Assembly: GCA_945897725.1 (NCBI GenBank)
Contig: CAMDFR010000005.1
Coordinates: 1-64,000 of the forward strand
DNA: 64,000 nt
DNA from: Chitinophaga pinensis
GTDB lineage: Bacteria; Bacteroidota; Bacteroidia; Chitinophagales; CAMDFR01
Direction: 5' to 3'
The notes beneath the pieces are model-generated. The model did not search any database, was not told where the DNA came from, and saw only the letters and a list, made by a program, of their open reading frames with translations. Of the stretch, positions 1-36,975 are shown one piece after another (within the stretch, counting starts at the first letter, position 1; the number at the start of each line of letters is the position of its first letter). The position numbers and the translations under genes are program-made.

Positions 1-199
1 CTTTGAGAAGCTGTTGCCAATACAAAATGGTAGCTGTAAAAAATTGAATATGATTTTCACTATTGTTTGATTGCATTTCATTATTTATTTTAACTGCTTT
101 TTGAGAAGCATTGGTGATATCAAAGTCGAAAATAGAATTTTCAAAAGATAGTTTGTAGTTTGGATTTAGAGATGGTGAGTTTGGATGTAGATATGGCAT
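1..199 (-). CDS. Partial ORF running off the left edge; N-terminus resembling a REP-associated tyrosine (Y1/IS200-like) transposase
   Basis: Not in the supplied ORF track. Minus strand from CAT at 197-199 is open to position 1: MPYLHPNSPSLNPNYKLSFENSIFDFDITNASQKAVKINNEMQSNNSENHIQFFTATILYWQQLLK... The 'HIQFFTATILYWQQLL' segment resembles the N-terminal strand of Bacteroidetes RAYT proteins. An alternative start is M42 (position 76). The catalytic HUH and Tyr motifs are outside the window. Confidence 0.5.
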   Translation of the reverse strand, partial: MPYLHPNSPSLNPNYKLSFENSIFDFDITNASQKAVKINNEMQSNNSENHIQFFTATILYWQQLLK

Positions 200-625
200 A
201 ACTCATTGCTTGTTGGTGAATAACACCAACAAGGGCGATAGAGAAGTGGCGAATAGATGGTATAGCTCATTGCTTGTTGGTGAATAATACCAACAAGGGC
301 GATAGAGAAGTAGTGAATACATGGCATAACTCATTTTGCTTGTTGGTGAATAACACCAACAAGGGCGATAGAGAGGTAGCGAATAGATGGCATAACTCAC
401 TGCTTGTTGGTGAATAACACCAACAAGGGCGATGCAGAAGTAGCGAATACACGGTATGACTTATTGCTTGTTGGTGAATATCAACAACAAGGGCGATAGA
501 GAAGTAGCGAATACATGGTATAGCTCATTGCTTGTAGGTGAATAATCCAACAAGGGCGATAGAGAAGTAGCGAATACATGGCATAACTCATTGCTTGTTG
601 GTAATGAATACCAAACAAGTCATGA
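191..625. repeat. Tandem array of about 7 hairpin units, period 63-66 bp
   Basis: Units start (gCTTGTTGG) at 208, 272, 338, 402, 466, 530 and 593. Core is CTTGTTGGTG-AATAA-CACCAACAAG (10-bp perfect stem in units 1, 3, 4) followed by GGCGATAGAGAAGTAGCGAATACATGGCATAACTCATT. The last unit is degenerate. Confidence 0.95.
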
Positions 626-636
626 GATAAGCATTT

Positions 637-1599
637 TTATTGCCTCAAAAATAGTTTGACTTGATCAGCAACATGTTTTCTGATATCGTACCAATATAAG
701 TTATAATCGGCAATATGAAAATTGGTGAAACCCTTTGCTAATGGATGATGTACATCTACCCAACAAATATTATCATGGACATGAGCACTTACCTTCTGTG
801 CTTGTTTCTTGTCGAAATTCAATAAAATCATACCTTGGTGTTGACTAAAAACTGTGCTGACGGTATCTGCTTTCCAACTGATTGGATTGATGCAAACGGC
901 ATCCTTATAGAAGGTGTGTATATTTTCTGGAATGAAGTCTTTTTTAAAGGAATACCATGCAACATAACATCCCAACTGCTCCGGAGAGGAACATGGTTGC
1001 AAGGTGCTATACATATTCATACTTACAGGATAGCCAACGATGTATGCTGCCACCATTTGCTTGGCCAAATCCTTTCCATCAACAAATTCTTGCAATAGCA
1101 TTTTTGTATGCAAGGAGCCTTGACTATGCGATGCAATGATAAATGGACGACCTTGGTTATAATATTTTAAATAGTATAGAAAGGCATCTTTCACATCTTG
1201 ATAAGCAAGACCAAAGGCTTTTATTGCAGAGAGTGTATCAGTGGTATAAAATGCTTTAATATTGGCTTGACGATAGAATGGGGCATAAACCCTACAAGAA
1301 CCATTGAAAACACTCGCTTGATTTTTCATTGACTTTTCTTCGATCTCCTTATTCAGTACCTGGTCGTCAATAGCAGCATTCCATGCTTCTCCTTTCATAA
1401 AATTGGTAGGATAAACAAAAAAAACATCCACGCCTTTGAGTGAATCAGCAATAGGATGTAGGCCTTTGGGAATCATATCTGCACCATCTTGGTTGAATGG
1501 CAAGGCAGCCCAAGACTCCTTCTTACTATAATCAATCCTTTGCTGTGCCCAAAGTGTTAATGTGCCAATGCATAGAACAATACAAATTTTAAACTTCAT
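637..1599 (-). CDS. DUF3089-type (alpha/beta-hydrolase-like) secreted protein
   Basis: ORF 637..1653; MKFKICIVLCIGTLTLWAQ at 1599 is the likely signal-peptide start. 'DVFFVYPTNF' and 'SHSQGS' (nucleophile-elbow-like) motifs. Confidence 0.75.
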   Translation of the reverse strand: MKFKICIVLCIGTLTLWAQQRIDYSKKESWAALPFNQDGADMIPKGLHPIADSLKGVDVFFVYPTNFMKGEAWNAAIDDQVLNKEIEEKSMKNQASVFNGSCRVYAPFYRQANIKAFYTTDTLSAIKAFGLAYQDVKDAFLYYLKYYNQGRPFIIASHSQGSLHTKMLLQEFVDGKDLAKQMVAAYIVGYPVSMNMYSTLQPCSSPEQLGCYVAWYSFKKDFIPENIHTFYKDAVCINPISWKADTVSTVFSQHQGMILLNFDKKQAQKVSAHVHDNICWVDVHHPLAKGFTNFHIADYNLYWYDIRKHVADQVKLFLRQ

Positions 1600-1725
1600 A
1601 ACTTCACCCAATTTGAGGCGTAAAGCTACTAAAATAAACATCTCTAGATGCATTGTTGGAGAGATAAAAGGGCCTTCTAATCATACTTTATTTTCTCTAG
1701 AAGATGCATAAGATGGTGATCCTAT

Positions 1726-1752
1726 GCCCTAGCACTGATCGAAGTGGTATCC
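1726..1752 (-). repeat. Dispersed repeat family R, copy 1
   Basis: Minus strand GGATACCACTTCGATCAGTGCTAGGGC aligns without gaps to the copies at 36882 and 61572. Confidence 0.7.
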
Positions 1753-1903
1753 TTTTTTTTTAAAAGTATCAGTTGCATGATCCTTTTACATGAGTTGGGA
1801 TTCATAAGAGGGATTCTATAAAAAAAAAGATACAAACGTAGAGCAGTAAAAGCTCCAAACAATCTTATGCTTCTATTGGTACAGTATGCTATAGCCTTAT
1901 TTC

Positions 1904-3226
1904 TTACATTCCATTCAGAAACATGGCTGCTATACTAAAATAAATAACCAATCCTGTGACATCCACCATAGTTGCCACCAAAGGTGCTGAAGAGGTTGCT
2001 GGATCTAGGTTTAGGCGTTTCAAAAGAAAGGGAATCATAGATCCGGAAAGTGTTCCCCACAACACAATGCCCACCAAGGAGAAAGACACAGTAAAAGCCA
2101 CAGCAAGCCAATGTTCGCCATAATTATATATACCACTTTCTTGCCATACTAGAATTCTAGTGAAGCCGATGATACCTAAGATGAGTCCTAAAGAAAGGCC
2201 AGAAAAAATTTCTTTTCTCATGACGAACCACCAATCTTTTAGTGTAATCTCGTTTAGCGCCATGGCACGTATAATAAGGGTTGCAGCCTGCGAACCTGTA
2301 TTTCCACCACTAGAGATAATGAGCGGTATAAACAATGTTAGCACAATTGCCTTCTCTATTTCGCCTTGAAAATAACTCATGGCAGAAGCGGTGAACATTT
2401 CGCCTACGAATAAAATCACGAGCCATGTCGCCCGTTTTTTAACCATTTCATATACACTTGTGCTTACATAAGGAAGATCTAAAGCCTCTACCCCACCAAA
2501 CTTTTGAATATCTTCTGTATCTCTTTTTTCGACCTGGTCCATGATGTCATCGAAGGTGATGATACCCACTAAAATACCCGACTCACTTACAATAGGAAGT
2601 GCTGCTCGATCATATTTCTCAAAAATAAGAATCGCATCTTCTTTGGTCATGGTGCTTAACACACTTACAAATTGATGGTCCATAATTGTATCGATGGTAT
2701 TGCTATCATCGGCCATCAACAAATCACCTATCTTAATGTCATCAATCAACTTACCTTGTTCATCTGTAACATATATAAAATTGAGGGTTTCGGCCCTTTT
2801 CCCAAATCGTTTGATATGTTGTAATGTTTGTGATTTTGTCCAATGTTGTTTCACTTCGATATAATGAGGTGTCATCATTCTTCCCACACTCTCTTCGCTA
2901 TACCCAATTAAGGTGAGGACAATTTTTCTTTCTTCTTCTGACAAAAAATTAACGGCATTTTTAATCAAAGTATCTGGAAAATCAAGAAATATTTGTGTTC
3001 TGTCATCTGGAGACATGCTATTAAATACTTCGGCAATATCCTTGCTTCCCATATTATGTAGAATATGTTCTTGTGTTTCGCGATCTAAATAGGTAAAGAC
3101 CTCACCAGAAATATGTCCAGGTAAAAGGATAAATGCAACGGTTTGTTCACTATCACTTAAGGCCGCAATAGTCTCAGCAATATCGCTCGGGTGTTTGTTT
3201 TGTAATTCATTTTTATCGTATGTCAT
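1904..3226 (-). CDS. mgtE: Magnesium transporter MgtE
   Basis: 440 aa; MgtE N-domain ('SPDDRTQIFLDFP'), CBS pair, and C-terminal membrane domain 'SSGGNTGSQAATLIIRAMAL'. Confidence 0.95.
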   Translation of the reverse strand: MTYDKNELQNKHPSDIAETIAALSDSEQTVAFILLPGHISGEVFTYLDRETQEHILHNMGSKDIAEVFNSMSPDDRTQIFLDFPDTLIKNAVNFLSEEERKIVLTLIGYSEESVGRMMTPHYIEVKQHWTKSQTLQHIKRFGKRAETLNFIYVTDEQGKLIDDIKIGDLLMADDSNTIDTIMDHQFVSVLSTMTKEDAILIFEKYDRAALPIVSESGILVGIITFDDIMDQVEKRDTEDIQKFGGVEALDLPYVSTSVYEMVKKRATWLVILFVGEMFTASAMSYFQGEIEKAIVLTLFIPLIISSGGNTGSQAATLIIRAMALNEITLKDWWFVMRKEIFSGLSLGLILGIIGFTRILVWQESGIYNYGEHWLAVAFTVSFSLVGIVLWGTLSGSMIPFLLKRLNLDPATSSAPLVATMVDVTGLVIYFSIAAMFLNGM

Positions 3227-36908: not shown

Positions 36909-36943
36909 TAAATTAATTTTGTTAAAAAAATAAGAATGAGATA

Positions 36944-36975
36944 CTTGTTGGTAAAAAACACCAATAAAGGCGATA
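36944..36975. repeat. Solitary copy of the left-edge hairpin family
   Basis: CTTGTTGGTaaaaaacACCAATAAAGGCGATA shares both the arms and the GGCGATA tail with the array at 191-625. Confidence 0.8.

Follow-up and report, generated by a model that had tools for sequence, protein, structure and literature searches.

A probable REPtron of TnpAREP subclass 2.6 and its tandem REP array at a contig end in Chitinophaga pinensis

Among bacterial transposases that have been domesticated, REP-associated tyrosine transposases (RAYTs) are the best known. At one end of a Chitinophaga contig a run of short hairpins lies directly ahead of an open reading frame which the contig end interrupts, and the question which this arrangement raises is whether the hairpins are REPs that are cognate to a RAYT, a regulatory element of its gene, the multiplied ends of an insertion sequence, or instead a tandem repeat found there by chance. 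The stretch analysed, here the window, is the first 64,000 nucleotides of contig C5 (C5:1-64000; CAMDFR010000005.1) of Chitinophaga pinensis, assembly GCA_945897725.1, which is a draft genome (G000) of 2.59 Mb in 50 contigs. Comparison was made with same-genus genomes, including the sister genome G002 (assembly 87% complete), with 80 RAYT homologues fetched from Bacteroidota, and, for co-occurrence, with a sample of 294 genomes of the class. The locus, as argued below, is very probably a REPtron, that is, a gene for an HuH/Tyr endonuclease (tnpA-REP, or RAYT, of subclass 2.6, equivalent to group 5) flanked by its cognate REP hairpins.

The interrupted transposase gene

The minus-strand ORF at 199-2 is present and continues past the contig end; it belongs to a RAYT/TnpA-REP gene, of which it is the 5' end and which contig C5 cuts short. 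Taken by itself this 66-aa window ORF matches no Pfam family, which is because the catalytic part lies off contig C5. That part is found on contig C12, where C12:16-213 gives a Y1_Tnp match above the Pfam cut-off, with its front missing. The contig ends, i.e., C5:1 (reverse-complemented) and C12:1, overlap by four bases, AAAG, and the joined frame is ungapped (...YWQQLLKENRYKQIIIDSL...), with no indels relative to homologues such as FFTATILWWKPLLKPDKYKQIIIDSL. We infer the join from these four shared bases together with protein continuity, and, as the assembly holds one front fragment only along with one back fragment without a front, it would seem to be well supported, with a broken gene less likely.

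In-frame ATGs of this ORF are found at 199 and 76 only. Homologous proteins start 8-15 residues ahead of FFTATI, which makes ATG 76 the likely start of tnpA and speaks against 199, as it is ATG 76 that the homologues' N-termini match. The preliminary description had the longest in-frame ATG lying inside of a repeat; the sequence around ATG 199 is indeed derived from the repeat, but the true start, going by homologues, is probably at about 76, and the ‘ATG in repeat’ is probably an artefact of longest-ORF calling.

From ATG 76 the joined protein is 178 aa long, against approximately 179 aa for subclass 2.6. Its HuH motif, PNHIH, is in the C12 part and matches the subclass 2.6 pattern NH[LIV]H, and its Tyr motif, YIHNNP, matches YIH[QN]NP and follows 77 aa after NHIH, the published subclass median being 82 aa past HuH (PMC6006769). 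The C-terminal tail, FYSSASF, carries the SS motif of the subclass. The flanking hairpins, i.e., the array and a hairpin on C12, are without GT[AG]G and have copies elsewhere in the genome (23 in all), which is likewise as described for subclass 2.6. NCBIfam REP_Tyr_transpos scores 68 bits against the C12 fragment (E 5.8e-19; cut-off 80, with the query only a fragment), and a profile search matches the E. coli TnpAREP 4er8. The W motif is the one deviation, WE here versus a consensus of WQ, with the residue in 81 rows (80 homologues plus the protein itself) being E in 35, Q in 17, and K in 1, and with the pattern unmatched in 28. The joined protein fits, by its motifs, TnpAREP subclass 2.6, which is RAYT group 5. 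Extending the contig leftward for HuH and Tyr motifs and searching for Y1_Tnp, both of which had been proposed, bear out the original suggestion of a RAYT.

Beyond the array lie a gene for a DUF3089 protein (637-1653, minus strand, 212.6 bits), which adjoins it, and then an MgtE-type transporter (1904-3226). Between these two genes is a Flavo-1 RNA (RF01705) above gathering score (1727-1854, plus strand), and additional Flavo-1 matches adjoin the RAYT loci of contigs C8, C9, and C12.

The array and its REP family

The hairpin array reported at the start of the window is real. By Tandem Repeats Finder the repeat spans 193-619, with 6.6 copies of a 64-bp unit and 87% matches; these comprise six full units of about 64 bp plus a decayed seventh (Table 1). 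In units 1, 3, and 4 the 10-bp palindrome is perfect and encloses a 5-nt loop; the unit 2 stem has one G-T mismatch, the hairpin of unit 5 is mismatched yet folds, that of unit 6 is weak (z = -1.4), and that of unit 7 has diverged. To speak of seven near-perfect palindromes thus was an overstatement, as four units are good while two are decayed and one is a relic. Folded as single-stranded DNA, either strand of unit 1 is far more stable than its shuffles (z = -5.2 and -5.6). All of units 1-6 have the GGGCGA foot in identical form, and their mean pairwise identity is 92.5% for the hairpin and 85% for the linker. A 53-bp direct repeat brackets the RAYT and its REPs from outside, with its two copies in one orientation. 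No Rfam family matches the array.

Table 1. Coordinates of features of the locus and of further RAYT loci in the same genome. Positions are those of the window unless a locus is named; array units begin with their hairpins.
Feature	Position	Strand	Remarks
tnpA-REP (RAYT, subclass 2.6), 5' part	2..76	-	likely start codon 76-74; continues at C12:1-465
In-frame extension to ATG 199	77..199	-	probably untranslated leader; unmatched by homologues' N-termini
Array unit 1	209..272	+	hairpin 209-233, foot GGGCGA 234-239, linker
Array unit 2	273..338	+	hairpin 273-297 with one mismatch, foot, linker
Array unit 3	339..402	+	hairpin 339-363, foot, linker
Array unit 4	403..466	+	hairpin 403-427, foot, linker
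Array unit 5	467..530	+	mismatched hairpin 467-491, foot, linker
Array unit 6	531..594	+	weak hairpin, foot, linker
Array unit 7	595..619	+	relic hairpin, diverged, without GGGCG foot
53-bp stretch, relic hairpin and flank	594..646	.	direct repeat, 92% identical, at C12:502-554 (L002)
Degenerate dispersed REP copy, intergenic	36938..36975	+	covariance model R1, 33.1 bits, E 2.4e-7
C9 RAYT, subclass-2.6-like	L022 4043-5215		hairpin family GGTTTGTG..CACAAACC
C8 RAYT, HuH PSHVH, YLHKNP	L021 3501-5067		hairpin family CTCACAAGCGGACGCTTGCGAG
C34 RAYT, truncated	L018 3087-3825		59-nt inverted repeat with CTCGCAAGTTTAGC

On the tnpA sense strand the REP reads 5'-CGCCC-TTGTTGGTG-TTATT-CACCAACAAG. Exact-arm copies of the hairpin number 15, across nine contigs (control, 0). 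The covariance-model search that had been suggested, with a model built from 16 copies, yields 23 forward matches in the source genome (E <= 2e-4), 13-14 REPs in G002, and weaker ones in G003, while the same search of G001 gave nothing convincing. The hairpin and GGGCG are common to aligned copies and their flanks are unrelated, and the REP unit therefore is a hairpin with an asymmetric foot. Dispersed copies were intergenic in all 12 of the 12 examined, as judged by ORF calling rather than annotation. A literature search with the core TTGTTGGTG returned no description of a REP with that core.

Some REP positions are common to the source genome and G002. Two stretches which bear REPs here, one of 209 bp (C18) and one of 552 bp (C2), are absent from G002, and these differences are REP-bearing islands gained or lost, not precise single-REP jumps. 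The 209-bp stretch (L030 4550-4758) holds two hairpins of the C9 family beside one of the C12/C5 family, such that this polymorphic island combines the REPs of two transposases. The REPs of G002 are found on its contigs C34, C69, C64, C71, C28, and others, and a search of that 87%-complete assembly for a close RAYT found none, the best match being of 32% identity; the RAYT may have been lost there or gone unassembled, or the REPs may have been kept without it. An empty RAYT site is not decidable from the three same-genus genomes in which the locus was compared, as the G002 contig stops inside of the DUF3089 gene and G001 carries the two flanks on separate contigs.

Three more RAYT-like genes are seen in the source genome, each with its own hairpin family on both sides (Table 1). 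Contig C14 (L019 2408-2998 and L020 2320-2799) encodes in addition a pair of Y1_Tnp proteins whose motifs, DH[IV]H and YINNQEKHH or YIMNQKKHH, match the published motif of subclass 1.2, which is not REP-associated. Several RAYT/REP pairs coexist, and nest, in one small genome.

Cognate hairpins across Bacteroidota

Hairpins with the same core occur within 1 kb of the RAYT in 51/80 homologues, at a density of 0.79/kb near the RAYT versus 0.042/kb farther away, a 19-fold enrichment (shuffles, 0). The exact hairpin is found in 9/21 genomes with a close RAYT (E <= 1e-31) versus 9/273 others (p = 2.5e-7, the genomes not being independent). Hairpin type, too, clusters on the RAYT tree, with 12 changes versus 24 when shuffled, to which row relatedness contributes. 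The preliminary description had named two outcomes that would speak against it, i.e., lack of HuH/Tyr motifs from the full-length ORF or lack of hairpin enrichment near RAYT homologues in related genomes; with the motifs found and the enrichment seen, it stands on both counts.

As orientation of the hairpins by GGC itself would be circular, the foot was counted again with orientation set by loop composition alone. So oriented, 111/139 hairpins are followed on their 3' side, within 5 nt, by GG[CG], versus 7/139 with the complement on the 5' side. The opposite strand reads 5'-GCC-n-stem, which is the position of GTAG in canonical REPs. A canonical GT[AG]G is not what stands directly 5' of the stem; instead one flank of the stem has GCCn and the opposite flank mostly nYA. 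The remaining loci have hairpins of other sequence, and in these the GTG-loop-CAC apex is mostly kept and the foot is on one side in about half, while REPs of the second RAYT, that of C9, likewise mostly have a GTG-loop-CAC apex plus a one-sided foot. The nearest upstream and downstream REPs form an inverted pair with feet outward (33/42 and 33/36), a layout to which the array in the window and the hairpin on C12 conform.

In these little-studied Bacteroidota REPs a conserved GCC foot stands where GTAG is usual. We consider it an evenly balanced proposition that the ‘atypical’ REPs of subclass 2.6 in Bacteroidota are one superfamily, having a GCC foot one base off the stem, GTG-loop-CAC, and often YA 2-3 nt past the stem (a possible cleavage site), with the enzyme reading GCC as a guide.

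Origin of the array and relation to known systems

A REP that is exposed as single-stranded DNA would fold up as a hairpin, with the GCC foot on one side only. By analogy with the enzymes of E. coli, S. maltophilia, and Marinomonas, from which the enzymatic steps are carried over (PMC8266576), the endonuclease may bind the GCC-foot strand and cut near the stem base, and REPs may spread to intergenic sites by way of such cutting of one strand. Strand-specific cleavage, and mobilisation of REPs by their own enzyme, thus are presumed for this locus. The REP closest to the gene start, together with its 38-bp linker, would then have been duplicated in tandem to give the array, whose far units would have decayed after duplication.

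That duplication was local is indicated by the linker, which within the whole genome is unique to the array, and which points to tandem growth from one REP plus its flank; the copies may have arisen by slippage, unequal recombination, or reprocessing of REP DNA. Nor is a head-to-tail array unusual, as the preliminary description had supposed. Three REPs form a 47-bp tandem at C5:129775-129907, on a contig that has no match to Y1_Tnp, and on C69 of G002 three are spaced 78-89 bp apart. Among homologues the clear constant-period arrays are two, i.e., an independent one of four 56-bp units upstream of the RAYT of L065 (Cyclobacteriaceae) and 118-bp units on both sides of the RAYT of L115. REP tandem reiteration together with flanking DNA has been described by Di Nocera et al. 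(PMC3733652). As such arrays occur without a RAYT as well as beside other RAYTs, the array most likely originated by local tandem amplification, and it needs no special function.

It could be supposed, nevertheless, that the array has been kept since it regulates tnpA, with either RNA in a long 5' leader or enzyme-bound DNA throttling expression (autoregulation). It lies directly upstream of tnpA, the leader RNA folds better than shuffles (z = -5.9), and the sole TAnnTTTG box on the gene strand is past the array, at 653, such that a transcript might cover it. Comparable arrays are rare among homologues, however, whose usual upstream REP is single or paired, and they occur also without a RAYT; units 5-7, moreover, are decaying with no compensating changes. 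Regulation accordingly is improbable. The HuH/Tyr fold family, the hairpins on both sides, and the 53-bp direct repeat on both sides would suit, in turn, an IS200/IS605-like insertion sequence with multiplied end repeats, the transposase of which moves its own gene. Yet the Tyr motif is YIHNNP rather than the Y(I/V)ENQ of IS200 (PMC6006769), the IS200 model scores 17.9 bits versus a cut-off of 55, no tnpB is found within 2 kb at C12, and the gene is single copy, where near-identical copies would be expected, versus 23 copies of the hairpin, all of which leaves an insertion sequence very improbable. Least credible is a plain tandem repeat, or transcription terminators, next to the gene by chance. 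The locally duplicated linker would be in keeping with a plain repeat, but the hairpin with its foot is dispersed in the genome and found beside homologous RAYTs across Bacteroidota, and no T-run follows the array hairpins. What counts against the REPtron reading itself is a join on four shared bases, a sister genome (G002) without a close RAYT, insertions of 209 and 552 bp that are not single REPs, and WE.

As a kind of element the probable REPtron of subclass 2.6 is a known one, and so is the sort of tandem array that its REPs form. The subclass was described as having ‘atypical secondary structures’ by Quentin et al. 2018 (PMC6006769), and the locus shares with it a Bacteroidetes distribution, NH[LIV]H, YIH[QN]NP, SS tail, and length of about 179 aa, as well as flanking hairpins without GT[AG]G that are copied elsewhere in the genome. 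It differs in its WE, common to many homologues, rather than the published WQ, in hairpins that are strong where the published ones are weak, and in its GCC foot, which the main text of that paper does not describe, though its Table S1 may already list it. A foot common to ‘atypical’ REPs is the point of wider use. In P. fluorescens SBW25, REPIN clusters, including their flanks, are in tandem, some beside RAYTs (Bertels and Rainey 2011; PMC3116915), and the array resembles these in its near-identical tandem units with flanks; the units there, however, are inverted REP pairs (REPINs), versus single REPs head to tail here. In the studies consulted, biochemical dissection is confined to REPtrons of groups 2 and 3, which are of the GTAG type (E. 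coli, S. maltophilia, and Marinomonas; PMC8266576), and a clear group 5 cognate pair with a defined foot supplies substrates with which to ask if recognition of a guide extends to HuH REP endonucleases in general. Like those GTAG REPtrons, tnpA here is bordered by cognate hairpins with a short, one-sided foot; unlike them, that foot, as read from sequence, is not GTAG but instead GCC, one base from the stem.
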